A stretch of DNA of 64,000 bases from Paenimyroides baculatum (GTDB lineage Bacteria > Bacteroidota > Bacteroidia > Flavobacteriales > Flavobacteriaceae): assembly GCF_008629655.1 (NCBI RefSeq), contig NZ_VWSG01000011.1:1-64000 (forward strand), in the 5' to 3' direction. Of the stretch, positions 34,549 to 57,771 are shown one piece after another. Positions within the stretch are counted from its first letter, which is position 1; each line of letters begins with the position of its first letter. The translations under genes were made by a program, and so were the position numbers. The notes beneath the pieces are model-generated. The model was given only the letters and a program-made list of their open reading frames with translations, ran no database searches and was not told the DNA's origin.

Positions 34549-34597
34549 ATTACAAGGAATAAAAAAGGGACAAATTACGGAAAAAAGTATATAAAAA

Positions 34598-35071: not shown

Positions 35072-35107
35072 TGTCCTTTTTTTTGGTATTGCACTAAACC
35101 AAATTTG
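35072..35107 (+). promoter_or_regulatory. Phage late promoter P1 (TGTCC class)
   Basis: TGTCCTTTTTTTT at 35072 and a TTTG box whose G is the 36th base from the first T (35107), preceded by A at base 30. This is one of five copies in the window with identical geometry. It drives the capsid block beginning at 35133 (25-nt gap). Confidence 0.7.
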
Positions 35108-35132
35108 TATCGTACAAATAGTGTAACATCAA

Positions 35133-36449
35133 ATGATCGACAATCTACATTCTTTATTAAGCGGTAAATGGTATATGGAACCTTCTGTAATTAACGGAAT
35201 GCTTCCATTACTGCAATCGGTATTAGCCGGTACCGATTTTAAAGTTTCAGAAAAATATAAACCTGCCATTGTTTTAAAAAATGGTACGGTTGTACTTGCT
35301 ACTTATGATAAATGGGGCGATTTGGTGTTACCTAAAGCAAACGAACCGTTTGTAATGGTAAACCCTATAAAATCTACCATATTTAAATACAATCAGGCAT
35401 GCGGACCTACTGGCACTAAAGATCATCAAAAAGTACTTCAGGAATATTTGAACGATCCAATGTGTGTAGGTATCGTGCTTGATATAGATTCGGGTGGTGG
35501 TCAGGTTTCGGGTACCGCAGAATTCTACGATTTTTTAAAGGCTGCACAAAAACCGATTCACACTTATACCGACGGTTATTTGTGTTCAGCAGCATACTAC
35601 ATAGCATCGGCAACCACTAGCATTACCGCAAATCCGCGTGCCGATATGATTGGAAGCATCGGTACAATGATTTCGTTTGTTGACTTAACCGGATACTACG
35701 AAAAACAAGGCGCAAAGGTTATTACCGAATATGCTACCAAATCAACAGCTAAAAACAAATCGTACCGCGATTTATTGGCAGGAAATCCGGAAAGCTACAT
35801 TCTAAACGAATTAGATCCTATTACCGATACATTCATTAACAACGTGAAAGATGCACGCCCAAATGTAAACGAATCTGTTTTTGATGGATCAACATATGAT
35901 GCCGAAAAATCTTTAGAATTAGGATTAATCGATACCATCGGGCAAATGGATACGCTTATTCAATCAATCTTCAATACCAAAGAAACCCAAAATAGTAATA
36001 ATTCAAATCTTAATATGAAAATGTCAAATCACCTACGAGTGATGGCGGTAATAGGTGTAGCAACTGCCCTAGCCATCGATGAAGAAAAAGGCACATACTT
36101 CAACGAACAACAACTGCAAAGCATGGAAGATGCTTTGGGTTCTGTTTTTACTGTAGCCGAAAAACAAACTTTAGAAACTTCTTTGCAAACAGCAAACGAA
36201 GCTAAAACAACAGCAGAAACGGCATTGCAAACTGCTACTATCGAACACGCAAACAATGTACAGGAAATTGCTACGGCGTTAGGTTTAAAAGCCGATGCAA
36301 CGCAGGCAGATATTACCGCACGTATTGCAGGTTTATCTGCGGGGCACACAAACCCTACCGGAACTGAAAAACCGAAGGAAGATGAGAAGGGCTCGTTTGA
36401 TGAAAAAGCAAGCCATAATCAATTTGCAAATCAATATTTAAATAAATAA
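35133..36449 (+). CDS. S49/SppA-like capsid maturation protease with C-terminal scaffold region
   Basis: Residues about 60-290 of this 438-aa protein match the S49 protease fold: GIVLDIDSGGGQVSG, then the nucleophile region DGYLCSAAYYIAS (Ser followed by AAYY), and IGSIGTMISFVDLTGYYEKQG. Residues about 295-438 are helical and Ala/Thr/Glu-rich, typical of the scaffold that such proteins carry. An internal ATG at 36015 (MKMSNHLRVMAV) could start a separate scaffold protein, as in other phages. It cleaves scaffold and capsid during head maturation. The major capsid gene follows at once. Confidence 0.85.
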   Translation: MIDNLHSLLSGKWYMEPSVINGMLPLLQSVLAGTDFKVSEKYKPAIVLKNGTVVLATYDKWGDLVLPKANEPFVMVNPIKSTIFKYNQACGPTGTKDHQKVLQEYLNDPMCVGIVLDIDSGGGQVSGTAEFYDFLKAAQKPIHTYTDGYLCSAAYYIASATTSITANPRADMIGSIGTMISFVDLTGYYEKQGAKVITEYATKSTAKNKSYRDLLAGNPESYILNELDPITDTFINNVKDARPNVNESVFDGSTYDAEKSLELGLIDTIGQMDTLIQSIFNTKETQNSNNSNLNMKMSNHLRVMAVIGVATALAIDEEKGTYFNEQQLQSMEDALGSVFTVAEKQTLETSLQTANEAKTTAETALQTATIEHANNVQEIATALGLKADATQADITARIAGLSAGHTNPTGTEKPKEDEKGSFDEKASHNQFANQYLNK

Positions 36450-36452
36450 AAT

Positions 36453-37457
36453 ATGTCGATAAAATTAGATCAAGTTCAAGAAGAATTAGGGACCTACATT
36501 CAAGAAAACCCTAACTTATTGTCGTCAATGGTTTATGAAGCCGAAATAACGGTGAACAAATACGCCCAAACACTGACAAAAATAAACGGTGAGTATCCTA
36601 TGGTTCACTCTTTAATGAGCCATGTAGTACAAGGATTTAAGAGTGAATGGCAGGAATTGGGAGAAGCTAATTTCCGTGCAAAACTTTTAAAATCTTTTAA
36701 ACAAAAAGTAAACTTTTCTTTTAAGCCAAGTGATATGTTAGGTACATGGTTGGCTAAATTATATACGGAAGGTAAAGACGCAAAAGATCACCAAATATCT
36801 GAACACATAACTGATGACTTGAAAAAACAAGTTATTATTGATTTGGAAATTTTATCTATGGAAGGCGAACGTGATGATGCTAATGCCGATGGAGAATTTG
36901 GAAAATCTTTAAACGGTTTATTAACCCTGCTTAAAAAAGGTTTGCTGTCTGCAACCGATCCTATGTTTTCAATTCCATTAGAGGTAGCTGTTTTAGCTAA
37001 CATTCTTGATGTTGTTGAAGAATTCGAAACGGGTATTCCATTGCGTTACGCTAAAGGTCCTGTTTTTATGAGCCGCCCAATGGCTTTATTGTACAAAAAA
37101 GCTTGGAGAGATACGTATGGAGATAATACTGATTTTTCTGCTAACAGTGCCGGTAGAACACCATTATTAGATTTAGAAATTATTGTATTGCCTATTCCTG
37201 GTAATGTAATTTTCACTACAGTTGATGGTAACTTAAAACGTTTAATCGACATTATCGATAAGCCAGAAATTACGGATATCCAAAAACAAGATTATGTTCT
37301 AAAATTGTTTATGGAATTTACTTTAAACTACGATTTTGCAATTAACCAGTTGGTATTTGTTGGAAATTTTGACGGTGATGCTGTTCGCGGTTTAGGAAAC
37401 AATGAATTAAATAAAATTTATTTTCCACAAGAAGTATTTGAACCTGTAACACCATAA
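36453..37457 (+). CDS. Major capsid protein (probable)
   Basis: 334 aa, directly downstream of the protease/scaffold gene (3-nt gap), the usual place of the major head protein. The sequence has a helical N-terminus and a long central region with VFMSRPMALLYKKAWRDTYG, as in HK97-like head proteins of Bacteroidota phages. No signal or membrane segment. The identification rests mainly on position, length and overall pattern. Confidence 0.7.
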   Translation: MSIKLDQVQEELGTYIQENPNLLSSMVYEAEITVNKYAQTLTKINGEYPMVHSLMSHVVQGFKSEWQELGEANFRAKLLKSFKQKVNFSFKPSDMLGTWLAKLYTEGKDAKDHQISEHITDDLKKQVIIDLEILSMEGERDDANADGEFGKSLNGLLTLLKKGLLSATDPMFSIPLEVAVLANILDVVEEFETGIPLRYAKGPVFMSRPMALLYKKAWRDTYGDNTDFSANSAGRTPLLDLEIIVLPIPGNVIFTTVDGNLKRLIDIIDKPEITDIQKQDYVLKLFMEFTLNYDFAINQLVFVGNFDGDAVRGLGNNELNKIYFPQEVFEPVTP

Positions 37458-37460
37458 CAA

Positions 37461-37976
37461 ATGGCAAAGTCAGTAAGAAAAACAGAAGAAGTTGCTGCAT
37501 CAAAGGATGCAGCAGCTACACCTGTAGAAAATGTACAGGAAACAAAGGCTGTAGATGCAAAAGCACAGCAAGAAGCTGATGCGAAAGCACAGCAAGAAGC
37601 CGATGCAAAAGCACAACAAGAAGACGATGCGAAGGCTCAGCAGGAAGCTGATGCGAAAGCACAGAAGGAAGCCGATGCGAAAGCACAGCAAGAAGCTGAT
37701 GCGAAAGCACAGCAAGAAGCCGATGCAAAAGCACAACAAGAAGACGATGCGAAGGCGCAGCAGGAAGCTGATGCGAAAGCACAGAAGGAAGCCGATGCGA
37801 AAGCACAGCATGAAGCCGAAGAACAAAAACCTGAAAAAGGTTATGGTTTTACTGCCGATGCACCTAAACGCATTCGCTACAATGGCGAAGTTTATTCGCA
37901 AGAAGAAGTATTAAATAACCCTGAATTATTGCATGAACTTGTTATGGGTAAATGCATATTCATTAAAAGAGCGTAA
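37461..37976 (+). CDS. Phage protein with 8-residue AKAQQEAD repeats
   Basis: 171 aa: a short N-terminal part, about eleven copies of an 8-residue unit (consensus AKAQQEAD), and a conserved-looking C-terminal domain (RIRYNGEVYSQEEVLNNPEL). The repeat should form a long highly charged helix. At DNA level a 120-bp block (37560-37679) is repeated as 37680-37799 with a single difference. It follows the capsid gene, so a head or head-tail protein with an extended stalk is likely. The repeat number probably varies between strains. Confidence 0.65.
   Translation: MAKSVRKTEEVAASKDAAATPVENVQETKAVDAKAQQEADAKAQQEADAKAQQEDDAKAQQEADAKAQKEADAKAQQEADAKAQQEADAKAQQEDDAKAQQEADAKAQKEADAKAQHEAEEQKPEKGYGFTADAPKRIRYNGEVYSQEEVLNNPELLHELVMGKCIFIKRA
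37560..37799 (+). repeat. 120-bp tandem duplication (24-bp coding repeat)
   Basis: 37560-37679 and 37680-37799 are identical except at one base (GGCTCAG against GGCGCAG). Each 120-bp copy is five 24-bp units, so there are two levels of repetition. In frame. Confidence 0.95.
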
Positions 37977-37978
37977 CC

Positions 37979-38551
37979 ATGCCAGATATTCCATTAGATG
38001 ACATTAACGGCGAAAGCTGTGAACCAAGTGCAGGTCTATCGACCGATTTGTATTTCATTGAGCGAAAAAATTTAGCTACAATGACCGATCCTAAAGATTT
38101 GTGCGGTGATAGTCCAAATGCAGCTGCAACTTTAGAAGAATTGATTGAGATTTCAGGAACACCCGGACACACTTTAAAACCCGATAAAAAGTGGGAAAAA
38201 TTAGAGTTTATCCAAGAAACTCCAAACATTAAATCAACGCAGATTGGTGAAAAAGAACGCCGTTTGTTTCAAAACGAACTTGCAGGGCAAATTGTTGGCA
38301 GTAAAGCCCGCTTACTTGGATTCATGCGTTGGGTAAAAAATAAAAAATTAATTTGCCTTATCCGCGAAATTGGTACAAAAAACTTACGCCAAATGGGAAG
38401 TGATGAATTTGCTGCTTGGATTGAAACCCAGGAACATATCATTGAAGGTCCGCGTGAAGGTGTTAATGGCTTAAACATTACAATTGCCGATAAACAGCAA
38501 TGGCCTGCACCAATTTACAAAGGCGATGTTGTTACCACGGTAACACCGTAA
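37979..38551 (+). CDS. Probable tail tube / major tail protein
   Basis: 190 aa, beta-rich, soluble. The position after the head genes and before a small helical gene that could be a tail-assembly chaperone, as well as the length, fit a tail tube subunit of Bacteroidota siphophages. A direct family match was not made. The stop is followed by a terminator at 38574. Confidence 0.5.
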   Translation: MPDIPLDDINGESCEPSAGLSTDLYFIERKNLATMTDPKDLCGDSPNAAATLEELIEISGTPGHTLKPDKKWEKLEFIQETPNIKSTQIGEKERRLFQNELAGQIVGSKARLLGFMRWVKNKKLICLIREIGTKNLRQMGSDEFAAWIETQEHIIEGPREGVNGLNITIADKQQWPAPIYKGDVVTTVTP

Positions 38552-38573
38552 TTAAATGTTTATAATTTGTTTT

Positions 38574-38606
38574 AAAACGCTTGCTTTTTAGTGAGCGTTT
38601 TTTCCT
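38574..38606 (+). terminator. Terminator after the capsid block
   Basis: 8-bp stem AAAACGCT/AGCGTTTT (38574-38581 with 38594-38601) followed by TTTCC; it ends just before the ATG of the next gene. Confidence 0.65.
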
Positions 38607-38619
38607 TAAAATTTTTGCT

Positions 38620-38958
38620 ATGTACGGTTACGAAATAAAAATTAAAGAATTTATAAAAAATAACTTTGAACCCAGTACGCCCGAAAATGCCAACATGAAG
38701 ATGAAAACTTCGCAGTTGCTTTTTTTCTTGTGGAATACTTTTCCTGTTGATTGCATTAGTGATTATGAATTGGTTTTAATTCTGGAAGAATTGGGCTACA
38801 AAGAAACAATGTATGTTGTAGAAAACAGTACCAAAAGGAAAGCTGAAAACAGAAAGTATATTGAAATTCAAAAAGGTTTAGAATTAGGTTGGTGCCTTAA
38901 AAGCCCATTTGATTTACGAACAGAAACAATTGAAGATCTTTCGGAAGAGGAGGAATAA
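38620..38958 (+). CDS. Small phage protein, possibly tail-assembly chaperone
   Basis: The ATG at 38620 (112 aa, MYGYEIKIKEFIKNNFE) is used because the upstream extension lies in the terminator. Helical, acidic C-terminus (TIEDLSEEEE). Placed after the probable tail tube gene. Function by position only. Confidence 0.45.
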   Translation: MYGYEIKIKEFIKNNFEPSTPENANMKMKTSQLLFFLWNTFPVDCISDYELVLILEELGYKETMYVVENSTKRKAENRKYIEIQKGLELGWCLKSPFDLRTETIEDLSEEEE

Positions 38959-38960
38959 AA

Positions 38961-39074
38961 GTCCTCCAACATTTAAAAGTAAACTCTCACATTCATTTTA
39001 AATTTAGCACCAAAGCCACCGTTGGAGGACATAAGTCTTCTTAATGGTGGCTTTGCTATTATATGAATGTGAGA
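38961..39074. ncRNA. Pseudoknot-like structured element with three interleaved perfect stems
   Basis: Three perfect inverted repeats lie in the order A-B-C-A'-C'-B'. A is GTCCTCCAAC (38961-38970) with 39021-39030; B is TCTCACATTCAT (38985-38996) with 39063-39074; C is CAAAGCCACC (39011-39020) with 39046-39055. A crosses both B and C, and C abuts A'. The arm A can also pair with GGAGGA at 38949-38954. The element occupies the whole gap before the methylase gene. It could be a pseudoknotted RNA, an RNA switch or a DNA structure used in recombination; no known family is recognised. Confidence 0.6.
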
Positions 39075-39106
39075 TTACAAATATATAAAAAATCAATGGT
39101 TTGAAT

Positions 39107-39925
39107 ATGAAAACACCAATTAGTTACTATGGCGGCAAACAAAACCTGGTATCTACTATTTTGCCTTTAATACCAAAACATAAAACATACACTGAATCTT
39201 TTGTTGGAGGCGGTGCTATATTCTGGGCAAAACAACCCAGTGAAGCCGAAATAATAAACGATTACAACCGTGAGCTAATAAATTTCTATGAAGTATGTAA
39301 AAATGAATTTATCGAATTAGAAAAAATGGTTCGAATAAGTTTACACAGTCGATCATTGCATACTGATGCTACAGTAATGTATGAAAACCCACATTTATTT
39401 ACACGCATTCAACGTGCATGGGCGGTTTGGGTTTTATCAACACAATCATTTAGTGCTATGTTAGATGGTTCCTGGGGTTATGATGTTAAAGGTAGTACGA
39501 TGCCTAAAAAACTGAATGGTAAGAAAAATAGTTTTACTGAAAATTTGGCTATACGTTTACAAAACGTACAAATAGAAAATACAGATGCGTTGAGGATTAT
39601 AAGAAGTCGTGATCATAAAGATGCATTTCACTATTGTGACCCTCCTTATTTCAACTCCGATTGCGGACATTATGACGGTTACAGTAAAGATGATTTTGAA
39701 AACCTTTTAATAACCCTGCAGCAATGCGACGGAAAATTTTTAATGTCATCATACCCTAGTGATATTTTAACCGATTACAGCAAAAAAAACAATTGGTTTA
39801 CTCGTAATATTGAGCAAACTGTTAGTGTAGCAAATGGTACTGGCGGACCCGGTAAAAAGAAAATTGAAGTACTAACTGCTAATTATGATTTAAGTAACCC
39901 TACTGATAATTTAGTATTGTTTTAA
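39107..39925 (+). CDS. dam: DNA adenine methylase (Dam/D12 class)
   Basis: The ATG at 39107 gives 272 aa. D12-class N6-adenine methyltransferase motifs are ISYYGGKQ (early), SFVGGGAIFW (AdoMet site), and DPPYFNSD (catalytic DPPY, about 190). It transfers a methyl group from AdoMet to adenine in a short recognition sequence that cannot be read from the sequence. No restriction enzyme lies beside it, so it is an orphan phage methylase, probably for protection from host restriction or for timing. It follows the interleaved-stem element. Confidence 0.9.
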   Translation: MKTPISYYGGKQNLVSTILPLIPKHKTYTESFVGGGAIFWAKQPSEAEIINDYNRELINFYEVCKNEFIELEKMVRISLHSRSLHTDATVMYENPHLFTRIQRAWAVWVLSTQSFSAMLDGSWGYDVKGSTMPKKLNGKKNSFTENLAIRLQNVQIENTDALRIIRSRDHKDAFHYCDPPYFNSDCGHYDGYSKDDFENLLITLQQCDGKFLMSSYPSDILTDYSKKNNWFTRNIEQTVSVANGTGGPGKKKIEVLTANYDLSNPTDNLVLF

Positions 39926-39966
39926 AAATTTTAGTTAAGTTTGTTCAACACTTAATTAATTTTATC

Positions 39967-40335
39967 ATGAAAAAACTACTTACATTATTAGTTCTTTTAG
40001 GAACAACATCGGCGGTATCTGCGCAAATTATGGTTAACAAAGAAGATTTAAACCAGGTAGCAGATTCGTTTGAACTTTATGCAGCAATTAAACCGTTCAC
40101 TACCGAAGAATGTGTTTTTATTGATTACGGACAGGATAAATTCCGCCCTAATAATTACGATTTAAAGGATGCACAGGCTATTTACGATAAAGATGGCAAC
40201 AAGTTTAACAAAGGCGATTACCGTAAAGCAATTAAATACATTGAAGCACAAGGTTGGAAAGCTACCGATAAACGAGTTAAAAAAATCGGTGACATTGATG
40301 TTAATGTTACTATATATGAAAAAATAAAAGAATAA
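39967..40335 (+). CDS. Small exported protein of the prophage
   Basis: 122 aa with a clear signal peptide (MKKLLTLLVLLGTTSAVSAQ), then a soluble domain of about 100 residues. Nothing recognised. A signal peptide is unusual in a phage structural region; it may act on the host surface during lysogeny (a moron gene). Confidence 0.55.
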   Translation: MKKLLTLLVLLGTTSAVSAQIMVNKEDLNQVADSFELYAAIKPFTTEECVFIDYGQDKFRPNNYDLKDAQAIYDKDGNKFNKGDYRKAIKYIEAQGWKATDKRVKKIGDIDVNVTIYEKIKE

Positions 40336-40351
40336 ACCTAAATAAACAATT

Positions 40352-40549
40352 ATGACAAACGAACAATTTGAACAATTAATACAAGTTCTTAATGAAATTA
40401 AAGATGAAATAAATTCTTTAAATGACAATGTAAATATTACTAATTCAGCACTTTCTAGAATTGAGAATAATACATCACCTGTTTACGATGCGCAAGATAT
40501 TTGTAACAAACTTGATGAAGTTATAACAGCTATTGAAATTAACAGTTAA
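40352..40549 (+). CDS. Small coiled-coil phage protein
   Basis: 65 aa, a long helix (EQFEQLIQVLNEIKDEINSL) with heptad pattern. No family recognised. Terminator 7 bp downstream. Confidence 0.5.
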   Translation: MTNEQFEQLIQVLNEIKDEINSLNDNVNITNSALSRIENNTSPVYDAQDICNKLDEVITAIEINS

Positions 40550-40555
40550 AAAACT

Positions 40556-40580
40556 AACCACCCGAAAAGGGTGGTTTTTT
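40556..40580 (+). terminator. Terminator upstream of late promoter P2
   Basis: Perfect 8-bp stem AACCACCC/GGGTGGTT with loop GAAAA, then TTTT. It ends 2 bp before the TGTCC element, a compact stop/restart arrangement. Confidence 0.85.
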
Positions 40581-40582
40581 AA

Positions 40583-40618
40583 TGTCCTTTTTTAAAGGTT
40601 TTACAACTTCCATTTTTG
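40583..40618 (+). promoter_or_regulatory. Phage late promoter P2 (TGTCC class)
   Basis: TGTCCTTTTTT at 40583; A at base 30 and TTTG at bases 33-36 (G at 40618). The ATG of the next gene begins only 4 nt later (40623), so the mRNA should be nearly leaderless. Confidence 0.7.
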
Positions 40619-40622
40619 TACT

Positions 40623-41390
40623 ATGGAAGTTATACAACATTGGTTAGATAATGGCGCAGATTATAATAAAGGCGTCAAAATTTATAAAAACACTAAAGGG
40701 TGCAGTAAAATGTTACTACGCCAATTTGCTTTGCGCGAAACTACACAGCGCAAAGAAAAGCTTATCTACGAACTTAAAAAGCTTATCCCTAAACAGGTAA
40801 GTACACTACCTACCAAGCTTACTGCACTACCTACAAATGTTACTGCACCAGGTATAAAGCCAAAAGAAAATGTTGTTTTACAAACTGCCGAAAAAGAAAG
40901 CAAACGTATTGCGCCATTATTCCATGAACTGCCACCGGAACTGCGCCCAATATTGTTAGAAGCAAATAATCTGTTTAAAGAAAACTGTCTGTTAAAAGTA
41001 CAGCTTAACGAAGTTGCTATTGAAGATGAAGCTACTGCATTGGAAATACAAACACGTATATCACGCAATTTTAAAGCAAATGCTGTTTGTTGGGATAAAA
41101 TAGAATACTGGCAAAAACACAAGCAACTGCCAAAAGAAACATCGGTAGAAAATATATCTGCCTATTCTATGGGAAAATTGCTACGTGAACAGGCAAACAT
41201 AAATTCATCGGTTAGCCGAATGGAAAAACGATTGAAAATAAATCAGGCGAATTTATCAGCCGAAGAAAACCCTGCAGAACGTAATAAACTACTGCGAAAA
41301 ATAGCAAAGCAGGAAAAAGATATCCTGCAAAAACGTGAACAACAATTAATCATAAAAAATACAATCGATGTCAAATCTACTAGCGTTTAA
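40623..41390 (+). CDS. Unknown phage protein before the terminase
   Basis: 255 aa, helical and charged, with a KxKLIPKQ linker and a C-terminal coiled coil (SSVSRMEKRLKINQANLSAE). Basic overall. Upstream of the terminase genes and overlapping the next by 23 nt; it could be a small terminase-type DNA-binding protein or an adaptor. Unrecognised. Confidence 0.5.
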   Translation: MEVIQHWLDNGADYNKGVKIYKNTKGCSKMLLRQFALRETTQRKEKLIYELKKLIPKQVSTLPTKLTALPTNVTAPGIKPKENVVLQTAEKESKRIAPLFHELPPELRPILLEANNLFKENCLLKVQLNEVAIEDEATALEIQTRISRNFKANAVCWDKIEYWQKHKQLPKETSVENISAYSMGKLLREQANINSSVSRMEKRLKINQANLSAEENPAERNKLLRKIAKQEKDILQKREQQLIIKNTIDVKSTSV

Positions 41391-41958
41391 ACGTGGCGAC
41401 ACATCGCTTGATAAACTCCGTGCATATTATGCAGATCCGGAAAAGTATCCTCTTTCGCCAACTTTGGAAGCTGTTCGTGAACGTCTGCAGTACGTAATGC
41501 AGCTGCGATTAAATTATTGGAACAAACAAAAGATTGTTACATTTTTAAAAGAAAAGTTTGACATTGAGCAGGCACAGGCTTATTCGGATATTCGCAATAG
41601 CGAACTGTTGTACGGTGAAATAAACGAAACAAGCCGCAAAGCCAAACAGGCACTTCTGTACGAATATTCTTTTCAATTACTGCAGCGTGCACGTGAACGT
41701 GGCGATACTAAAGTTGAAGCTAAAGCAATTGAGTTGATGAGTAAATTTGGTGGTTTGGATCAAGAAGAAAACTTGGAATTCAATCCAGAGAAATTCGAAG
41801 CAGTTACCCCTAAACTTTCGGTTAACAATAAAGCAATGGCGAAATTTATGGAAATGATTGTGAAAGGTGTAGTAGATCTTAATGATTTTAATGCTACCGA
41901 TGTAGACTTTGAAGAAGTAAACAACGAAGAAACCGAAGAAGAAGATGGTAGCAGGTAG
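41368..41958 (+). CDS. Probable terminase small subunit
   Basis: 196 aa with an N-terminal helix-turn-helix-like region (NKQKIVTFLKEKFDIEQAQA) and an acidic C-terminal tail (DFEEVNNEETEEEDGSR). It overlaps the large-subunit gene by 14 nt, the usual arrangement. It should bind the packaging site and recruit the large subunit. Confidence 0.65.
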   Translation: MSNLLAFKRGDTSLDKLRAYYADPEKYPLSPTLEAVRERLQYVMQLRLNYWNKQKIVTFLKEKFDIEQAQAYSDIRNSELLYGEINETSRKAKQALLYEYSFQLLQRARERGDTKVEAKAIELMSKFGGLDQEENLEFNPEKFEAVTPKLSVNNKAMAKFMEMIVKGVVDLNDFNATDVDFEEVNNEETEEEDGSR

Positions 41959-43459: not shown

Positions 43460-43482
43460 TCACACGTAAAACCTTGAAAATC

Positions 43483-43518
43483 AACGCTAAAAGTTAAAAT
43501 TTTAACATTTAGCGTTTT
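43483..43518 (+). terminator. Terminator after the terminase genes
   Basis: AACGCTAAA and TTTAGCGTT flank the perfect palindrome GTTAAAATTTTAAC, together a long hairpin ending in TTTTC. 24 bp after terL. Confidence 0.65.
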
Positions 43519-43689
43519 CATATATCCTTTTTTTGAAAAATGGCATTTGTAAAAATTTTAAGGCGACCGTCGGGCACGTTCGTGTTAAAATTAGAATATT
43601 AAATAAAAAAAATGCTTTTAATCTTTGATTATCAGATAGATAATTAAAAATATAGTGTAAAAAAGGTATCAAAACGTGCTTAAAAATGA

Positions 43690-43725
43690 TGTCCTTTTTT
43701 TTGGTAGGCTGTAAATCGACCTTTG
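43690..43725 (+). promoter_or_regulatory. Phage late promoter P3 (TGTCC class)
   Basis: TGTCCTTTTTTTT at 43690, A at base 30, CCTTTG with G at base 36 (43725). ATG of the next gene 4 nt later (43730): apparently leaderless, as P2. Confidence 0.7.
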
Positions 43726-43729
43726 AACT

Positions 43730-44077
43730 ATGGAAAACAGAACATCTATCTTTTTAAAGCAGGCTTTGGAAATTATGAACACTCGAAAACCCGATGGTTC
43801 GTTTGCTCCTTTTGACATTGCTTTAAGAACGTTCAATGATCAAACAGGTAAAGGCGGTAAATATGTTTTTCACGAAAACGTTCGCTTACTGCCAGAAGCT
43901 AACCACGACAAAAAGAAAACCGAAACTGTTGCTACCGTGCTAAATGAAGTAAAGCAAAACAAACGCCCGAACCATTATAAAAACCGCACGCGAAACATTG
44001 AGTTTCCAGATGGTTCTGTAAAAACCATAAGAATAGATTTTTTAATAACAATTAACTCACACCCTATTATATACTAA
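43730..44077 (+). CDS. Small basic phage protein before the portal
   Basis: 115 aa, basic, soluble (KPDGSFAPFDIALRTFNDQ). It resembles small proteins beside the portal gene in Bacteroidota phages by position only. Stop overlaps the portal start by one base. Confidence 0.55.
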   Translation: MENRTSIFLKQALEIMNTRKPDGSFAPFDIALRTFNDQTGKGGKYVFHENVRLLPEANHDKKKTETVATVLNEVKQNKRPNHYKNRTRNIEFPDGSVKTIRIDFLITINSHPIIY

Positions 44078-45432: not shown

Positions 45433-45433
45433 C

Positions 45434-46375: not shown

Positions 46376-46376
46376 G

Positions 46377-51055: not shown

Positions 51056-51071
51056 TAAGTAAATTAAAAAC

Positions 51072-51524
51072 GTGGAAGATAAAATAACACTAATAGATAA
51101 AGGCATAAAGCTTTTTTTAAGCGCATATCAAGTGCTTTTTAGGGTAACCAAAACAAGGCTGGGTAGTGGGTTCGTTGGTTTTTTTCTTGCTGCAAGTTTG
51201 GCTGTTTTAATTTGGATATACTTTATAAAAGATGGTATGCAAGAATTAAAAAACGAGAATACAAGTTTAAAAGCCGAAAACAATGATTCAAAAGCATCAT
51301 TAAAACTATGTGAAACCGAAAAAGCTAATGTTAGGGAAATTGTCCGTAATGAACTGAAAGATGAAGTGAGGGCTGAAATGAAAGAACAAATGGATGTAAC
51401 ATTTCAGTACATGCAGAAAGCCCAGGAACATTTGATAAATGGAAACGTAAAAAAATCAAAAGATATTCAACAATTAGAAGAAGAAATTCAACTACTGGAA
51501 AAAAGAAAGGAGGCAATGCGATGA
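51072..51524 (+). CDS. Membrane-anchored coiled-coil protein of the lysis region
   Basis: 150 aa with one hydrophobic segment (FVGFFLAASLAVLIWIYFI, about residues 37-55) followed by a long periplasmic or cytoplasmic coiled coil. It lies before the endolysin. Holin or spanin-accessory roles are possible; a single membrane segment is few for a typical holin. Confidence 0.55.
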   Translation: MEDKITLIDKGIKLFLSAYQVLFRVTKTRLGSGFVGFFLAASLAVLIWIYFIKDGMQELKNENTSLKAENNDSKASLKLCETEKANVREIVRNELKDEVRAEMKEQMDVTFQYMQKAQEHLINGNVKKSKDIQQLEEEIQLLEKRKEAMR

Positions 51525-51856
51525 AAAAATTATTTATTCTGGTACCCATCTTATTTTTTGGGTTAAAACCATATCAGCAACCAATCAGCAATAAACAAGC
51601 TACAGACAGTTTAACACCATTTCAAAAGGACACTCTTGTATTATCGATCATAAATACAGAAACGGAAATACAGGCAAATATTTCGCAGCAATTGGATAAC
51701 AGAAAACAACAATTGCAAAATGAAAAATACCGATTACTCAATGAGATAAAAAGAATTCAACAGCGCAAAAAAGAACAAAGAAGAAAGCACCAGGAAAAAA
51801 GAGAATTAGAAGAAATGATTAAATATTTAGAGAAATACGAAAACAGAGGATTATGA
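51521..51856 (+). CDS. Small exported coiled-coil protein of the lysis region
   Basis: 111 aa. N-terminal hydrophobic segment (KKLFILVPILFFGL) followed by a highly charged coiled coil (RIQQRKKEQRRKHQEKRELEE). Overlaps both neighbours by 4 nt. Possibly a lysis factor; unrecognised. Confidence 0.5.
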   Translation: MKKLFILVPILFFGLKPYQQPISNKQATDSLTPFQKDTLVLSIINTETEIQANISQQLDNRKQQLQNEKYRLLNEIKRIQQRKKEQRRKHQEKRELEEMIKYLEKYENRGL

Positions 51857-52263
51857 GAACAATTAAATACATTGCGGTGCACTGCACCGCTACAAAGCAA
51901 AGCGCAACAATAGAAGCAATCCGAAATTATTGGAAGCGCAATTTAGGTTGGAAACAACCAGGTTATCACATTATTGTAAAACCTAACGGCGATCATGAAC
52001 GATTGGCATTGGACGAAACGGTTTGCAATGGTGTAAAAGGCTATAACACCGAATCAATACACGTTAGTTACATTGGCGGTATAGACGATAACGGAAAAGC
52101 GTTAGACAACCGGACCGATGCGCAAAAAAGAACATTGCTGCAAATTATTTGCGGATTAAAAGCAAAGTATCCGGGTGCGGTTATTCAAGGGCATAAAGAT
52201 TTTCCAAATGTTGCGAAAGATTGCCCGAGTTTTAATGCTAAAGAAGAATATAAACATTTGTAA
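51853..52263 (+). CDS. Phage endolysin: N-acetylmuramoyl-L-alanine amidase
   Basis: This 136-aa Amidase_2-type zinc enzyme resembles T7 lysozyme. Probable zinc ligands are H10 (VHCTAT), H114 (QGHKDFP) and C124 (KDCPSF). It cuts the bond between muramic acid and the stem peptide. It has no signal sequence, so release needs a holin or another pathway. It is flanked by predicted membrane-associated lysis proteins. Confidence 0.9.
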   Translation: MRTIKYIAVHCTATKQSATIEAIRNYWKRNLGWKQPGYHIIVKPNGDHERLALDETVCNGVKGYNTESIHVSYIGGIDDNGKALDNRTDAQKRTLLQIICGLKAKYPGAVIQGHKDFPNVAKDCPSFNAKEEYKHL

Positions 52264-52264
52264 A

Positions 52265-52825
52265 ATGAAAAATCTAATTTTATTATTTATGATCGTTTTC
52301 CTGACGTCGGGAATATGTTCTTGTAGATCAAAAAAAAGCACGACTGATTTTAAACATACCGAAACCGAAAATGTTTCTATTGTCGACAATTCAACTGTTG
52401 AAAAAAAAGAAACGATTATGGTAAACAACCAAGAAACAAAAACCGAAGTTGTTACCGATAAATCATTCTTTGAAGCGTGGATGAGTTTTGAAAGTGATAA
52501 AATTACTATTACAGATAATCAAGGAAACAAAACCGAAATTACCAACCCACGGATCAATAAAAAATCATCACAGACAAACGATGTTTCAAAATCCGATCAA
52601 ACGGACATCAAACAAGAAAAGTCTGCTGTATCCGAAGAAAACCAACAAAATAATGTTGCTGTATCAAATAACCGTCAAATAAAAACTGAACTGCAGAAAA
52701 AAGATGCAAGTAAAGGTAAAGAGCCGGTTTGGTTGTATGTCGTTGGGGCGGTTGTGCTTGGTGGTTTGGCTTATGGAATTTTAAAAAAGTTTAATTTAAT
52801 AAAGTTTAAAAATGAGATTAATTAG
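52265..52825 (+). CDS. Predicted single-protein spanin (u-spanin-like lipoprotein)
   Basis: From ATG 52265 this 186-aa protein has a lipoprotein signal (MKNLILLFMIVFLTSGICSC, lipobox Cys). A polar, Lys/Gln/Asn-rich middle and a C-terminal membrane segment (VWLYVVGAVVLGGLAYGI) with basic tail follow. An outer-membrane lipid at one end and an inner-membrane helix at the other is the topology of unimolecular spanins, which fuse the two membranes at the end of phage lysis. It directly follows the endolysin. Call rests on topology and position. Confidence 0.7.
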   Translation: MKNLILLFMIVFLTSGICSCRSKKSTTDFKHTETENVSIVDNSTVEKKETIMVNNQETKTEVVTDKSFFEAWMSFESDKITITDNQGNKTEITNPRINKKSSQTNDVSKSDQTDIKQEKSAVSEENQQNNVAVSNNRQIKTELQKKDASKGKEPVWLYVVGAVVLGGLAYGILKKFNLIKFKNEIN

Positions 52826-53150
52826 TGTAGAAGAATTTAAAAAAGAAAATAAAGACCTTTTAAAAAAGTGGTCTAAGATGAGCAAAGAAGAGTTGCTTGA
52901 AGAAATTGTAAAAGAAAGCACTGATGCTATGAATATGTGCGAAAGGGTACAATTATTCATGGTTGAATGTACCGACATGAGTAAGACAAATTATACTTTA
53001 GATGTTATTAAAACTCTTATTTCAGAAAAAAAAGAAAGAGAAATTGCTGACTGGTGTTCGATGACTGTCGAAGATTCTGAAGGTGACGATCAATATATAT
53101 TATCTGAAGTAAAGGAAAAAGCTAAGGAGGGGATGTGGTCAGAAAATTAA
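52812..53150 (+). CDS. Unknown phage protein
   Basis: 112 aa, helical, acidic (KWSKMSKEELLEEIVKES), overlapping the spanin gene by 14 nt. No family recognised. Terminator 26 bp downstream closes the lysis block. Confidence 0.5.
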   Translation: MRLISVEEFKKENKDLLKKWSKMSKEELLEEIVKESTDAMNMCERVQLFMVECTDMSKTNYTLDVIKTLISEKKEREIADWCSMTVEDSEGDDQYILSEVKEKAKEGMWSEN

Positions 53151-53175
53151 TTTAAAGAAAGGAGAAATATCTATT

Positions 53176-53206
53176 AAGCGATGCAGAAATGTATCGCTTT
53201 TTTTTG
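53176..53206 (+). terminator. Terminator of the fibre/lysis block
   Basis: 9-bp stem with one G-T pair (53176-53184 with 53191-53199, 6-nt loop) followed by seven T. Confidence 0.8.
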
Positions 53207-53208
53207 TT

Positions 53209-53667
53209 TTAAAACTTATATTTTAGGGAATGGTCTAAAATCATATCTGTCAATTTACTTTTAATATAAATTGCATCCGGTTTTTCTAAAAATCCTAATG
53301 GTGCATAATCGATATATCTTTTTTGGAAGTTTTCAAACATTTCTTTACTGAAAACATACTTCAATTCTTTCCTCCGGTTGTTCAAATAAAGATCCAAATC
53401 TTCGTAGGACGACATTGTCGGTGAATATGCAAAAGATAAAAGTTCGGGCACGCCTTCCAAAAACCAAATTAAAAGTTCGTTGCTTTCATCTTCCAATGGC
53501 GTAAAAAAATAATCATCAACACTGTAGTTTACAATAAAATCCGTTTTGAACCTCTCGTTGAAGTCTGTTAAATTTTTAGAAATTATATTCATGTTGGACC
53601 AGTGCTCTGGCTCAATTTCTATATCAAAATCTAATTCGATGCAAACGACATTTTTAAACGTTCTCAT
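53209..53667 (-). CDS. Unknown acidic protein on the opposite strand (moron candidate)
   Basis: 152 aa, acidic, soluble, no recognised domain. It is transcribed against the phage late genes and shares a 42-bp divergent promoter region with umuC. Opposite orientation, own promoter and isolation suggest expression during lysogeny. Function unknown. Confidence 0.5.
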   Translation of the reverse strand: MRTFKNVVCIELDFDIEIEPEHWSNMNIISKNLTDFNERFKTDFIVNYSVDDYFFTPLEDESNELLIWFLEGVPELLSFAYSPTMSSYEDLDLYLNNRRKELKYVFSKEMFENFQKRYIDYAPLGFLEKPDAIYIKSKLTDMILDHSLKYKF

Positions 53668-53697
53668 ATTTTAACTTTAACGCATTGTCCAATTTAA

Positions 53698-53705
53698 TAA
53701 TTTTG
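53698..53705 (+). promoter_or_regulatory. -7 box of the prophage umuC promoter
   Basis: TAATTTTG (TAnnTTTG consensus), 4 nt before the ATG at 53710. The 44 bp ending at the ATG (53669-53712) align without gaps to those of chromosomal umuC, including the upstream block TTTTAACTTTA. Confidence 0.65.
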
Positions 53706-53709
53706 TATC

Positions 53710-54963
53710 ATGTATGCGCTTGTAGATTGCAATAATTTTTATGCAAGTTGTGAAAGAATTTTTAAACCACAACTTCGAAATGTGCCCATCGTTGTATTAA
53801 GTAACAACGACGGTTGTGTTATAGCGCGTAGTAATGAAGCTAAAGAATTAGGTATTCCAATGGGTGCGCCTGCTTTTGAATATCGAACTATTTTCAAAGA
53901 AAAAGGTGTTCAGGTTTTTTCGTCGAACTATGCTTTGTATGGCGACATGAGCAATCGTGTAACTATTATTTTGAAACGCTACACACCGGAGATTGAAGTC
54001 TATTCAATTGATGAATCATTTTTAAAACTGAAGGGTTTTGAAAAGTACAATCTAACAGAGTATTGTTTAAAAATTAGAGAAGAAGTATTGCAAAGCACAT
54101 TGATACCAACATGCGTTGGTGTTGCGCCTACTAAAGCTTTAGCCAAAGTAGCAAATCGTATTGCTAAGAAGTTTCCACAATTCAAAGGTGTTTATGTTAT
54201 CGATACCGATGAAAAAAGAATCAAAGCTTTAAAGTGGTTGGATATTGAAGATGTTTGGGGAATTGGCCGCCAATTCGCGAAGAAACTAAAAGCAAGAGGT
54301 GTAAACAAAGCATATCAGTTTACCCAGTTGCCAAATGAATATGTAAGAAAGGAATTTTCAGTTGTAGGTTTGCGATTGAAAAAAGAACTTGAAGGATTAT
54401 CTGTTTTAGATTTGGAAGAAGTAGCAAACAAAAAGAACATTGCAACAACGCGGTCATTTGATAAAACATACGGTGAGAAATCCTATCTTGAAGAAAGGAT
54501 ATCTACGTTCGCGGCAACATGTGCTGAAAAGTTGAGAAATCAAAAAAGTACATGCAATATTGTAACAGTTTTCATTTATACAAACCCTTTCAATGAAAAC
54601 AACCAACAGTATTACAAATCGATCAATGTTACAATACCATACGGAACCAATTCAAGTATCGAATTGTCAAAGTATGCGAAAAAAGGCTTAGATTTAATAT
54701 TTAAAGATGGCTATCAGTACAAAAAAGCTGGTGTAATTGTTGGAGGTATTGCGCCCGAAAACGAAAAGCAGTTCAATATGTTCGAAGATGAACCGGTGCA
54801 ACACCGCAAAGCGATGAACGTGATTGACAAATTAAATTTTAAATACGGTACCAAAAAATTAAAGTTGGGTTCTCAGGCTTTAGATAAAACTTGGAAAATG
54901 CGCCAGGATCTATTAAGCCCGAATTATACAACAATGTGGGATGATGTTTTAGAAGTAGGATAA
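53710..54963 (+). CDS. umuC: Prophage UmuC, Y-family translesion polymerase
   Basis: Same 417-aa length as the chromosomal copy at 7654-8907 and closely similar throughout. D6 (VDCNNF) and D101-E102 (YSIDESF), the FSSNYALYGDM motif and the C-terminal LGSQALDKTWKMRQ are all kept, so it should be active. Differences are spread along the protein, so it is not a recent copy. It precedes umuD (4-nt gap) and a SRAP gene, forming a DNA-damage cassette in the late region. Confidence 0.94.
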   Translation: MYALVDCNNFYASCERIFKPQLRNVPIVVLSNNDGCVIARSNEAKELGIPMGAPAFEYRTIFKEKGVQVFSSNYALYGDMSNRVTIILKRYTPEIEVYSIDESFLKLKGFEKYNLTEYCLKIREEVLQSTLIPTCVGVAPTKALAKVANRIAKKFPQFKGVYVIDTDEKRIKALKWLDIEDVWGIGRQFAKKLKARGVNKAYQFTQLPNEYVRKEFSVVGLRLKKELEGLSVLDLEEVANKKNIATTRSFDKTYGEKSYLEERISTFAATCAEKLRNQKSTCNIVTVFIYTNPFNENNQQYYKSINVTIPYGTNSSIELSKYAKKGLDLIFKDGYQYKKAGVIVGGIAPENEKQFNMFEDEPVQHRKAMNVIDKLNFKYGTKKLKLGSQALDKTWKMRQDLLSPNYTTMWDDVLEVG

Positions 54964-54967
54964 TAAT

Positions 54968-55432
54968 ATGATAAAGTTTATTAAAGCTCCGGTATTTGGT
55001 AAAGAATTGGAGAATATTCCGGTTAATGGAGAAGGACAAAAATATTTGGTTAAATATTTAGGTGGTGTTCAGGCGGGGTTTCCATCGCCGGCAGAAGATT
55101 TTCTGGCCGATACAATGAGTTTGGATGAAAGATATCTTTCTAAAAAGGAAAGTACATTTATCAATAAAGTAAAATCGTTGTCGATGTTCCCAGAATATCA
55201 GATCGGGGATTTCATTATTCTACGCTCTGATTATGAACCACAGCATGAAGATGATGTTGTAGTTTCAATCAATAATTCAGAATATACATTGAAACGTTTC
55301 GACAAAGCTAAAAACATGTTGATTGCTTTGAATACAGAATATTCCAATAGCGTAAAAATTGATGATGGTGATGAAGTGATAATTTTGGGTGTGGTTGATG
55401 CGCTTGTGCGCGAAAAGAAAAAAAGGAGGTAG
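54968..55432 (+). CDS. umuD: Prophage UmuD-like S24 peptidase
   Basis: 154 aa, closely related to the chromosomal copy at 7202-7657. Cleavage site A-G in QAGFPSPAEDF; catalytic Ser in KSLSMFPEY and Lys in SEYTLKRF. It should cleave itself and pair with the adjacent UmuC. C-terminus KKKRR is basic, as in the chromosomal copy. Followed after 2 nt by the SRAP gene. Confidence 0.92.
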   Translation: MIKFIKAPVFGKELENIPVNGEGQKYLVKYLGGVQAGFPSPAEDFLADTMSLDERYLSKKESTFINKVKSLSMFPEYQIGDFIILRSDYEPQHEDDVVVSINNSEYTLKRFDKAKNMLIALNTEYSNSVKIDDGDEVIILGVVDALVREKKKRR

Positions 55433-55434
55433 GT

Positions 55435-56052
55435 ATGTGTTTTTTTTATGGCGTTAGCAAAAGCAATAAGCAGATTGAAAAAGCTTTTAAAGCGAAGTTC
55501 GATCAAGATGGTTTTCAGCCTGTAGTGGAAGCAAACGGTTTCGCGCATCCGTTTATGCCGATAATTGTAGATCAACGACCGGATATCATTACCGGTGCAA
55601 ATTGGGGATTGCTGCCAACCTGGGCAAAAGATACTACGTTTCAAAAAAACACGCTTAACGCACGAATCGAAACATTAGAAGAAAAACCTTCTTTTAGGAA
55701 TTCGATCAATAACCGGTGTTTGATTCCGGCATCGCATTTTTTTGAATGGCATTGGAACGATGACAAAGGAAAGGTAAAACAGAAATACCAGATAAGTGTT
55801 GCAAATGAAGAACTGTTTGCTTTTGCAGGATTGTATTCTGTTTGGAATAATCCGCAGACTGGTGTTCCTATGATTACTTACACGATACTAACAACAGAAG
55901 CCAACGAACTAATGGCAGAAATACACAACAACAAAAAAAGAATGCCCGTTGTTTTGAACAGCGAGCATCATGACCTTTGGTTAAAAGGTGAGAATATTAA
56001 AACTTTTGCTTTTCCTTACGAAGTTAATCTAATGGCCAATCCAGTTCTTTAA
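55435..56052 (+). CDS. SRAP (HMCES/YedK) family protein
   Basis: This 205-aa protein has the catalytic Cys2 exposed after Met removal (MCFFYG), TLNARIETLEEKPSFR, CLIPASHFFEW and NNKKRMPVVL: the SRAP active-site set (Cys2, Asn, Glu, His). Members form a covalent bond with abasic sites in single-stranded DNA and so protect them from strand breakage. It lies directly behind umuC-umuD, completing a prophage cassette for tolerating DNA damage. It overlaps the convergent gene at 56024 by 29 bp. Confidence 0.92.
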   Translation: MCFFYGVSKSNKQIEKAFKAKFDQDGFQPVVEANGFAHPFMPIIVDQRPDIITGANWGLLPTWAKDTTFQKNTLNARIETLEEKPSFRNSINNRCLIPASHFFEWHWNDDKGKVKQKYQISVANEELFAFAGLYSVWNNPQTGVPMITYTILTTEANELMAEIHNNKKRMPVVLNSEHHDLWLKGENIKTFAFPYEVNLMANPVL

Positions 56053-56416
56053 CTTTTTCCACTAGATCCTGATAACTTAAATTTTCTTTGTAGTGAACAT
56101 CGATGCGCTTTTCGCCATCAATAATTATTGCAAAGCTTTCCGGATTAACGGTGTTGTCAATCTCATATACGAATTCTGTTGATAGTTCATCATCCAAAAC
56201 ATTGAAAGGTTCATATTCAAAAACATAATCAAATTCACCTTCTGTGTGAATGTTTATTATCAGTTCTGCAAATCTGCAACATTCATCTAGTGCAATGTTG
56301 TGGTAAAAGAATTGAGTTGCGGTAATTTCAACCATGTATTCAAACTCCAAAGGAATATCGATCCATGTACTAAAAACAAATTCCAATACGTTGCTAATGT
56401 ATTCATGTAATTTCAT
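56024..56416 (-). CDS. Very acidic unknown protein on the opposite strand
   Basis: 130 aa with more than a quarter Asp/Glu and few basic residues, no recognised domain. The 3' end overlaps the SRAP gene on the other strand, and the start is 36 bp from late promoter P4 (divergent). Strong acidity is a feature of DNA-mimic anti-restriction or anti-repressor proteins, but that is only a suggestion. Confidence 0.5.
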   Translation of the reverse strand: MKLHEYISNVLEFVFSTWIDIPLEFEYMVEITATQFFYHNIALDECCRFAELIINIHTEGEFDYVFEYEPFNVLDDELSTEFVYEIDNTVNPESFAIIIDGEKRIDVHYKENLSYQDLVEKVKELDWPLD

Positions 56417-56451
56417 AACAGCTATTTTAATTTAAAATTACAAAAATTTAC

Positions 56452-56487
56452 TGTCCTTTTTTACAACTTCCAAAAAATGCAACTTTG
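56452..56487 (+). promoter_or_regulatory. Phage late promoter P4 (TGTCC class)
   Basis: TGTCCTTTTTT at 56452, A at base 30, TTTG with G at base 36 (56487). It drives the tail-completion genes from 56504 (16-nt gap). Confidence 0.7.
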
Positions 56488-56503
56488 AATAAATTTCAAA
56501 GCT

Positions 56504-57229
56504 ATGGATGTAACTATAGATATTAATATTCCCGATACATGGAACCTGTTAACCGATGATCAGTTAAAACGAATTGCCAAAGCCCAAAACCTTAAAGGTG
56601 ATTTATTTGATTTGGCGGTGTGGTTGATACTCAATAACGCACACAAATACAACTTCGTTAAAAAGCATAAACTAAAAGCTGTTTTACAATTGGTGCCATT
56701 AAGCGAATTAAAAACACATTATAAATTTATTTATGAAGATGTTAAGCGTGAAAAGTTTATCGATCTGGTTGGCTACAAGAAACCATTAGATAGATTGTTT
56801 GATTTCAGCATTGAACGTTTCAGTTACGCCGATGGACTTTTTAATAAATTTTTGGAAACAAACGATTACAACTACCTACAACATTTAACGGCGGTACTTT
56901 ATCTCAAGAAAAACGAGGTTTTTAATTGGGATTTACAAAACCAACGTGCCAAACGTTTTAAACGTTTGCCAAAACACATCTTAATTGCCGTGCATCTTTG
57001 TTATTCAGGATGCAAAAATCATCTGGTTAAAAAGTATCCAAAGGTTTATCCAAAGGTTATATCGCAACAAAAAAAGTCAAACGGTAACCACTCGTTTTTA
57101 GATGTTGTTTTGTCAATGTCCGGGCAAAAGTTTGGTACCTACAACGAAACCAAAGCCACACGCCTGCATACGTTTATGAGTGAATTTACCAACACTATAA
57201 TTACACAAGAAAAATGGAAAGAAAAATAG
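56504..57229 (+). CDS. Unknown phage protein of the tail block
   Basis: 241 aa, basic (KRLPKHILIAVHLCYSGCKN), helical, no recognised domain. First gene after P4; it overlaps the next by 16 nt. By position a tail-assembly or completion factor upstream of the tape measure. Confidence 0.5.
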   Translation: MDVTIDINIPDTWNLLTDDQLKRIAKAQNLKGDLFDLAVWLILNNAHKYNFVKKHKLKAVLQLVPLSELKTHYKFIYEDVKREKFIDLVGYKKPLDRLFDFSIERFSYADGLFNKFLETNDYNYLQHLTAVLYLKKNEVFNWDLQNQRAKRFKRLPKHILIAVHLCYSGCKNHLVKKYPKVYPKVISQQKKSNGNHSFLDVVLSMSGQKFGTYNETKATRLHTFMSEFTNTIITQEKWKEK

Positions 57230-57705
57230 ATCCTGATAAAATATTACAGCTTCACGAAACAATTGCCAATAGACATAAAGGCATCAACGGTTTTTACCGA
57301 TTTAACCTAAAAGAAATTGAGGGGCAGTTTAGAAAAGGAGTTAAAACCCCTGCATTACTCTTGCTTTCACATAGCAGTGCATTAAATACAAATGCAAATA
57401 AAACAGCTAATTTTAATACGCACTTTGTAAGCCTGCTTATTATTGATTTTGCGGGTAAACCCAACGATTTTACAAAAGAAAACATCGTACTCAATGAAAC
57501 ATACTATCTGGCATTAGATGTTGTTAGTTATTTAAAAAAAGAACATGCAGATGAAACCAGTTTTTTATATTCTTTGTTTGAAATAAGCAGTGTAAGCATT
57601 GAAAAAGTAGGTCCAATCTTCGATAATATGTTTGGTTGGAATTTAATTTTCTCTTTAAAAAACCAAGAACCTTTCTGCTTTGAACCCGACAAATGGGAAG
57701 ATTAA
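57214..57705 (+). CDS. Unknown phage protein of the tail block
   Basis: 163 aa, mixed alpha/beta with hydrophobic strands (FVSLLIIDFAG), coupled to the gene before. Position suggests tail completion. It ends just before a terminator. Confidence 0.5.
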   Translation: MERKIDPDKILQLHETIANRHKGINGFYRFNLKEIEGQFRKGVKTPALLLLSHSSALNTNANKTANFNTHFVSLLIIDFAGKPNDFTKENIVLNETYYLALDVVSYLKKEHADETSFLYSLFEISSVSIEKVGPIFDNMFGWNLIFSLKNQEPFCFEPDKWED

Positions 57706-57708
57706 TAT

Positions 57709-57734
57709 AAACCGCCAAATATGGCGGTTTTTTC
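57709..57734 (+). terminator. Terminator upstream of late promoter P5
   Basis: Perfect 9-bp stem AAACCGCCA/TGGCGGTTT with loop AATA followed by TTT; 2 bp before the TGTCC element, as at P2. Confidence 0.85.
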
Positions 57735-57735
57735 A

Positions 57736-57771
57736 TGTCCTTTTTTACGCTTTTTTCCAAACCTAACTTCG
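57736..57771 (+). promoter_or_regulatory. Phage late promoter P5 (TGTCC class)
   Basis: TGTCCTTTTTT at 57736; TA at bases 29-30 and TTCG at bases 33-36 (one mismatch to TTTG). It precedes the gene at 57789 and the tape measure. Confidence 0.65.

Follow-up and report, generated by a model that had tools for sequence, protein, structure and literature searches.

Putative late promoters of a Bacteroidota temperate phage with a TGTCC element in place of the host -33 region and a candidate phage-encoded reader

Mu C, P2 Ogr and the RinA/ArpU proteins are late activators of temperate phages, small proteins that are encoded at the early/late border and are thought to serve several late promoters. 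Here we compare such systems with five sites in a prophage of Paenimyroides baculatum (Flavobacteriaceae), located in a window of 64,000 nucleotides (contig NZ_VWSG01000011.1, positions 1 to 64,000; all coordinates refer to this window and, unless stated otherwise, to its plus strand), each of which combines a TGTCC element and a T-run with a box resembling the -7 box of the host. The described systems further include the middle promoters of phage T4, a class with several members per phage, in which a phage box, the MotA box centred at -30, stands in place of the -35 region and the host -10 is kept (PMC2988021). Helices conceal the start region in T4 genes, e among them; in the case of gene e they do so in the long early transcripts, whereas the late transcripts begin downstream of the 5' arm and are translated well (PMC3014915). 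On the host side, in a map of 5' ends in Flavobacterium psychrophilum, the primary-sigma box TAnnTTTG lies at -12 to -5, a second box, SM5 (TAnnTTGY), is assigned to an alternative sigma factor, and 5.5% of mRNAs count as leaderless (PMC9723704). For F. johnsoniae, it is stated that a -33 motif could not be identified (PMC7366714). In the literature we searched, neither a promoter class like the one presented here nor late-gene activation in Bacteroidota phages was described.

The best overall explanation, to which we assign a probability of roughly 0.68, is that the five sites are late promoters used by the host sigma factor together with a phage-encoded reader, the product of gene 34087-34548, with an additional layer of leaderless or hairpin-controlled translation. 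In this mechanism, the host primary sigma factor would read the -7-like box (A-n-n-TTTG, about -12 to -5), and a phage-encoded DNA-binding protein would read TGTC and a lineage-specific tail at about -40 to -30, the place of the -33/-35 contact, thereby activating the structural and packaging operons later than the early genes. That the sites are late promoters of a temperate phage is, from the sequence comparisons below, very probable, and a phage activator acting at TGTCC is highly probable.

Promoter 1 (35072-35107), before the protease block, combines TGTCCTTTTTT at 35072-35082 with a -7-like box at 35100-35107; its predicted +1 at 35112, derived from the placement of the box at -12 to -5 (PMC9723704), precedes an ATG at 35133. 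In promoter 2 (40583-40618, box 40611-40618), which heads the terminase operon, and promoter 3 (43690-43725, box 43718-43725), which heads the portal operon, the predicted +1 coincides with the A of the ATG at 40623 and 43730, respectively. Promoter 4 (56452-56487, box 56480-56487, predicted +1 56492) stands before an operon starting with an ATG at 56504, and promoter 5 (57736-57771, TTCG box 57764-57771, predicted +1 57776) before the tape-measure operon, with an ATG at 57789. The sequence-only reading had described five copies of (A/C)TGTCC plus T-run, at a fixed distance from the box and in intergenic gaps, and all of this was borne out: TGTCCTTTTTT is present five times, always on the plus strand; A is found at base 30 (A30) in 5/5; bases 33-36 read TTTG in four sites and TTCG at 57736; and all five lie in gaps between plus-strand open reading frames (ORFs), some of these gaps being overlapped by antisense ORFs of the mechanically compiled ORF list. 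Its fit of the box to the host TAnnTTTG held in part, as A30 (5/5) and TTTG (4/5) agree but the first T of the -7 box is present in only one of the five. Likewise, the statement that the host -33 is replaced carries less weight than its wording suggests: positions -35 to -30 are occupied by the T-run in 5/5 sites, and there is no TTTG, the Bacteroides fragilis consensus, near -33, but in F. johnsoniae no -33 motif could be established (PMC7366714).

Like the primary-sigma promoters of Bacteroidota, the phage sites show A30 and, in the corresponding position, a TTTG-like box; unlike these, they mostly lack the first T and carry an invariant TGTC at about -40. With the T4 middle promoters they share, as judged by sequence, the phage box in place of the upstream host region with the host box kept, and the occurrence of several promoters of one class per phage, but here the genes are late, the TGTCC element is at about -40 to -30, and the host belongs to another phylum (PMC2988021). 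Pfam scans of the window proteins, in which small ORFs were partly covered and no search was aimed at MotA or AsiA, revealed no relatives of these two proteins. The window promoters may work like T4 middle promoters, with membership in the MotA/AsiA system to be read as likeness only.

In the host genome (3.34 Mb), TGTCCTTTTTT occurs 21 times, with five copies inside the 22.7 kb spanned by the sites and 16 elsewhere. None of these 16 has A30 together with TTTG at bases 33-36; one has TTCG there, without A30. In keeping with the earlier expectation of few copies outside the prophage, a genome-wide count of the element followed by N18-24 and TTTG gave six matches, four in the phage at N21 and two elsewhere, at N22 and N20. 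A weight matrix built from 17 sites of other phages (L012, L013, L014, L027 and G058) placed the five sites at ranks 1 to 5 on both window strands (32.7, 27.9, 26.9, 26.5 and 25.3 bits; next hit 15.7), and the maxima of ten Markov windows, scanned on one strand each, were 7.4-17.5 bits.

Relatives were gathered via TerL and comprised 16 viral contigs (one of them, L011, the window's own phage), three genome records and G058/G031. Gene order is kept among them, and the same late genes are preceded by a TGTCCTTTTTT-like element in L012, L013, L014, L027 and G058 and by a TGTCCTATTTT-like element in L015-L020, L022-L026, L028 and L029, so that the spelling differs by lineage (TGTCCTTTTTT, TGTCCTATTTT, TGTCCTTTTAA, TGTCACA, TGTCTTAAA). 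Over 25 loci, TGTCCT[TA]TT is found at 92 sites on the late strand and at six on the other, one of the latter being a true site that belongs to a gene inverted in L019. L011 and L021, a near copy of L020, were excluded from these counts and from the first pairing test below; removal of a duplicate in L083 and of a site at the end of L029 left 90 late-strand sites, 81 of which have A30 and one of the boxes TTTG, TTAG, TTCG, ATTG or TTTA at bases 33-36. Base 7 is uniform across the passing sites in 20/20 phages with at least two such sites (0/20000 label shuffles, related phages not being independent), and this uniformity within each phage points to a phage-encoded reader. The same genes, the same spacing and a lineage spelling that is uniform within each phage strongly support the earlier suggestion of a phage-specific late promoter class.

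The element extends to named phages of two families. In Polaribacter phage Leef_1 (Helgolandviridae), TGTCCTTTT occurs six times, ahead of genes that include those for protease, terminase, portal and tape measure. Within the Duneviridae, Cellulophaga phage Ingeline_1 has seven distinct sites, five of them with A30 and box (portal, tail, protease, terminase and 22952 blocks); Flavobacterium phage laban6-1 has TGTCACAA at four sites, all with A30 and box; and phage 6H has TGTCTTAAA at four sites, with the box one base nearer (32-35) in three and at 33-36 in the fourth, which adjoins an A-run and an N in the record. Prophage G031 carries TGTCACA at five sites, all with A30 and box. A scan of IMG/VR with CTTTTTTTATGTCACA returned mostly noise (A30 and box in 5/68 sites); with GGTTTTTTTATGTCCTWTT, A30 and box were present in 34/69 sites and A30 with TTGC in nine more. 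TGTCC with A30 and an SM5-like TTGC at bases 33-36 instead of TTTG was seen in L087, L095, L110, L114, L117, L139, L144, L145 and L149 from IMG/VR and in Leef_1. As a separate observation, the terminase promoters of L015, L016, L017, L018, L022, L023, L025, L026, L028 and L029 contain an extra block, ACACTTTCCAT, just 5' of the -7 box (bases about 20-31), which the other late promoters of the same phages lack.

Since the box occupies bases 29-36, +1 is expected at base 41 and the element at -40 to -30. In 37 of the 81 sites, a long frame has its first ATG starting exactly at base 41; the first ATG starts at bases 40-43 in 42 sites, at 51-62 in 27 and at 68-73 in five, with none in reach in seven. 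About half of the late operons would accordingly make leaderless mRNA, with the ATG at +1. In the window, the terminase and portal operons have their ATG at base 41, and their mRNAs are probably leaderless. The sequence-only reading had noted neither the start codon at the predicted +1 nor the pairing across +1 reported next.

The sites with an ATG at 51-62 (leader sites) differ in another respect. From the 90 sites, we set aside the 9 box failures, the 7/81 without an ATG in reach and near-identical sites, keeping 60, and calculated how strongly bases 20-40 pair with the segment that runs from base 41 to just beyond the ATG. In 25 non-redundant leader sites, own pairs had a mean of -6.32 kcal/mol, compared with -4.26 (standard deviation 0.40) for swapped pairs, and 0/300 swaps were as strong; 15 further leader sites, each under 80% similar to the first set, reproduced this result (-5.65 versus -4.11, standard deviation 0.46; 0/1000). 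Because the arms vary yet still pair, RNA (or single-strand) pairing is favoured over one fixed protein site. Sites with an ATG at 68-73 (n=5) had no clear pairing excess (4/300). In the window, inverted repeats cross the predicted +1 of promoter 1 (35091-35124; duplex -9.1, z -2.65) and of promoter 4 (56483-56501; duplex -7.7, z -2.25). In leader operons, readthrough RNA from upstream would fold a hairpin beside or over the start codon, and RNA begun at the late promoter would lack the 5' arm and hence be free for translation; whether these hairpins act as a translation switch we judge, from the sequences, to be an even bet. This would resemble the hairpins of T4 genes e, soc and 49, whose 5' arm precedes the start of late transcription, so that folding is expected in readthrough RNA only (PMC3014915), provided that +1 is near base 41; here, several operons per phage are involved, Shine-Dalgarno pairing is absent, and the arrangement is predicted from sequence. 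The dyad TTTCCAT...ATGGAAA at the terminase promoter (promoter 2), considered as a protein operator, was rejected as a general feature, because L016, L022, L025 and L029, in which the ATG is further down, keep the upstream half and lose the downstream half, and because the leaderless class has no clear pairing excess.

The likeliest reader of the element would be the 153-residue product of 34087-34548, which we favour by a narrow measure as the late activator. Like the genes of Mu C, P2 Ogr and RinA/ArpU, its gene encodes a small protein and sits at the early/late border, at the entry to the late block; unlike these proteins, its family has no significant match in Pfam or PHROG and none to a solved chain. 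The 34598-family gene 3' of it is visible in 12 other loci and is preceded by a 34087 homolog in 11, among which L021 is the near copy of L020; the twelfth, L025, ends at that place. Leef_1 carries a homolog (E 2.5e-27), and remote homologs are encoded directly 5' of a motif site in Ingeline_1, 6H and G031 (hhalign E 7.8e-5, 7.8e-4 and 1.7e-4; hidden Markov model E 1.8e-4 for G031), and laban6-1 encodes a protein related to that of 6H at 36%. In a set of 136 loci retrieved by DNA pattern, a homolog was found in 10/41 with a verified site and 0/95 without (Fisher 2.6e-6), in a test that covered the 34087 family only and in which loci were partial and related, L150 (= Leef_1) and L152 (= L019) were already in the hidden Markov model (HMM), and L124 and L140 have the same protein. 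Between phages with TTTTTT and TATTTT spellings, the 34087 protein shows a single fixed difference in 146 columns, Lys135 versus Gln, located in the last predicted helix (127-151). The residue is K in 4/4 TTTTTT, Q in 8/8 TATTTT and Y in 2/2 TGTCACA proteins, and across five motif classes column 135 alone of 138 keeps one residue per class and a different one in each (K, Q, F, D, Y), as found on 16 proteins with two of the classes being single-member. Three of five proteins added later agree with this (L108 Q, L156 Y, L183 Y).

The AlphaFold2 (AF2) model of the protein (pLDDT 85, pTM 0.76; no known family) has a helical C-terminal part. Against BFVD it matches small viral proteins with probabilities of 0.96-1.00 but E-values of 0.2-0.7, the Leef_1 homolog alone falling below 0.001; a comparison with the PDB yielded no significant solved relative (best E 5.0), and the best hit of a VIA search, DdmD (Z 4.1, rmsd 5.9, 110 aligned), was taken as a common arrangement. 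The neighbouring 34598-35065 was put aside as a regulator, as its conserved end and alignment look structural and no family was matched. On the minus strand, TGTCCCTTTTT lies 5' of the 34598 gene at 34562-34572, and L079 (about 14040-14080) is listed with it for this element; a like element is at the same place in L027, and in Leef_1 it takes the form of a long palindrome, GGGACAAA...TTTGTCCC. This minus-strand element could be a second binding site, serving autoregulation.

Several observations weigh against this explanation in one or another of its parts. The box test was failed by 9/90 late-strand sites; Leef_1 seldom meets the strict box (A30 in 5/6; boxes TTAG in one, CTTG in one and TTGC in three), and L131, a later contig, mixes spellings, with A at three sites and T at one. 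Leaderless sites had no clear pairing excess (own -2.35 versus -1.99, 15/300 swaps; 317/1000 in the later set), and the window leader site at 57736 gives no support for pairing across +1 (z +0.42). For the 34087 product, the remote homologies are weak (HMM E 0.044 for Ingeline_1 and 0.0019 for 6H), a helix-turn-helix (HTH) is weakly supported, residues 87-142 aligning to MntR chains at Z 2.3-2.5, and the motif classes follow descent. Column 135 fails in two of the five later proteins (L146 L, L131 S), after which it was dropped as a strict code and kept as a lead. Finally, a LuxR-type protein encoded in the window co-occurs with the motif as much as the 34087 product does.

This LuxR-type regulator (24593-25162; Pfam GerE, 7.8e-15) could read the same promoter class as a class II activator at -40 to -30, a possibility that we regard as unlikely though worth keeping in sight. 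The sequence-only reading had named it as a candidate; wherever a phage could be checked it does accompany the motif, but the 34087 product is the stronger candidate. Its GerE HTH suits the role, and relatives are present in 11/21 records searched (the larger ones, the remainder being mostly short fragments), in Leef_1 and in Ingeline_1, as an annotated gene in laban6-1 and as aligned from 6H gp61. However, its gene opens the early region and is many kilobases away from the late genes, whereas the 34087 gene adjoins the early/late border, which makes its product the better candidate. Moreover, the four LuxR columns that are fixed and different between TTTTTT and TATTTT phages (9, 19, 92 and 102) all lie outside the HTH, whereas in the 34087 protein such a column falls in the last helix; 0/171 LuxR columns are constant within and different between the five classes, and the recognition helices are near-identical in 6H, laban6-1 and G031 despite different spellings. 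LuxR genes are also reported, and tied to host density, in the flavobacterial phage paper from which these family names come; by word count, 'promoter' is absent from that paper (PMC8776804).

If the sites were ordinary host promoters, with the T-run as an A/T-rich upstream element, no phage factor would be needed, and both the match of the box to the host consensus and the lack of an established -33 motif in Flavobacterium (PMC7366714) would be accounted for; but it is TGTC, not the T-run, that is invariant (TGTCACA, TGTCTTAAA), the spelling is uniform within phages and different between them, and the box is present in 0/16 of the other genomic copies, leaving this improbable. An alternative sigma factor reading the whole promoter (a host ECF or SM5-type factor, ECF denoting extracytoplasmic function, or one encoded by the phage) would fit the A30 and TTGC of some sites (3/6 in Leef_1, 9/69 in IMG/VR), which correspond to the SM5 box TAnnTTGY (PMC9723704). 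Yet the primary-sigma TTTG is found in 4/5 window sites and most relatives, and Pfam scans of the window phage proteins, small ORFs being partly covered, detected no sigma-2 domain. Of the two factors that the sequence-only reading had proposed, the phage activator is the best inference, the alternative sigma factor being slightly more improbable still than plain host promoters. Most improbable of all is that the element is an RNA-level signal, a processing site or leader element. It often lies directly 3' of a terminator-like hairpin and T-run, as seen with the hairpins at 40556-40576 and 57709-57730, immediately 5' of promoters 2 and 5, but 35072, 43690 and 56452 lack a preceding hairpin of this kind, and the fixed spacing to a host -7 box, with the ATG four bases past it, is promoter geometry.

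The prophage has the order C1-type repressor (23745-24110), LuxR-type gene (24593), primase (26392), and then head protease, TerL, portal, amidase and tape measure. The blocks headed by the five promoters were largely as previously assigned: PHROG matches identify the terminase operon, which starts with 40623-41390 and holds TerL (PHROG 2, 1.1e-7), the portal operon, starting with 43730-44077 (portal PHROG 11226, 3.6e-4), and the tape-measure operon, starting with 57789-58142 (PHROG 1272, 1.3e-12), but the 'capsid' block opens with a head maturation protease (35133-36449; PHROG 53, 9.1e-52), the first gene 3' of promoter 1. The first gene 3' of promoter 4, 56504-57229, has no family match, so 'tail-completion' stands for this block merely as the label given in the sequence-only reading. 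Within the late capsid block, 39101-39925 encodes a D12-class adenine methyltransferase (Pfam 9.5e-24); L015-L017 have relatives of it in the corresponding position. Between the lysis and tail genes, 53710-56052 encodes a UmuC/DinB-type polymerase (Pfam IMS, 3.3e-37) and a SRAP protein (2.5e-47), likely SOS-related cargo.

Taken further, the findings might define a new family of phage late activators, represented by the 34087 product, that work with Bacteroidota RNA polymerase in at least two named phage families, have a recognition helix co-evolving with the element and are tied to a leaderless-or-hairpin rule, a proposal that we put forward tentatively and hold to be somewhat less probable than its opposite. 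The analysis yields a set of promoters with predicted starts, one small candidate activator and one residue of interest, in cultured phages (Leef_1, Ingeline_1 and laban6-1). Should the reading prove correct, it would provide phage-switchable expression for a phylum in which tools are scarce, and also a natural setting for testing leaderless translation by ribosomes that work independently of Shine-Dalgarno pairing.

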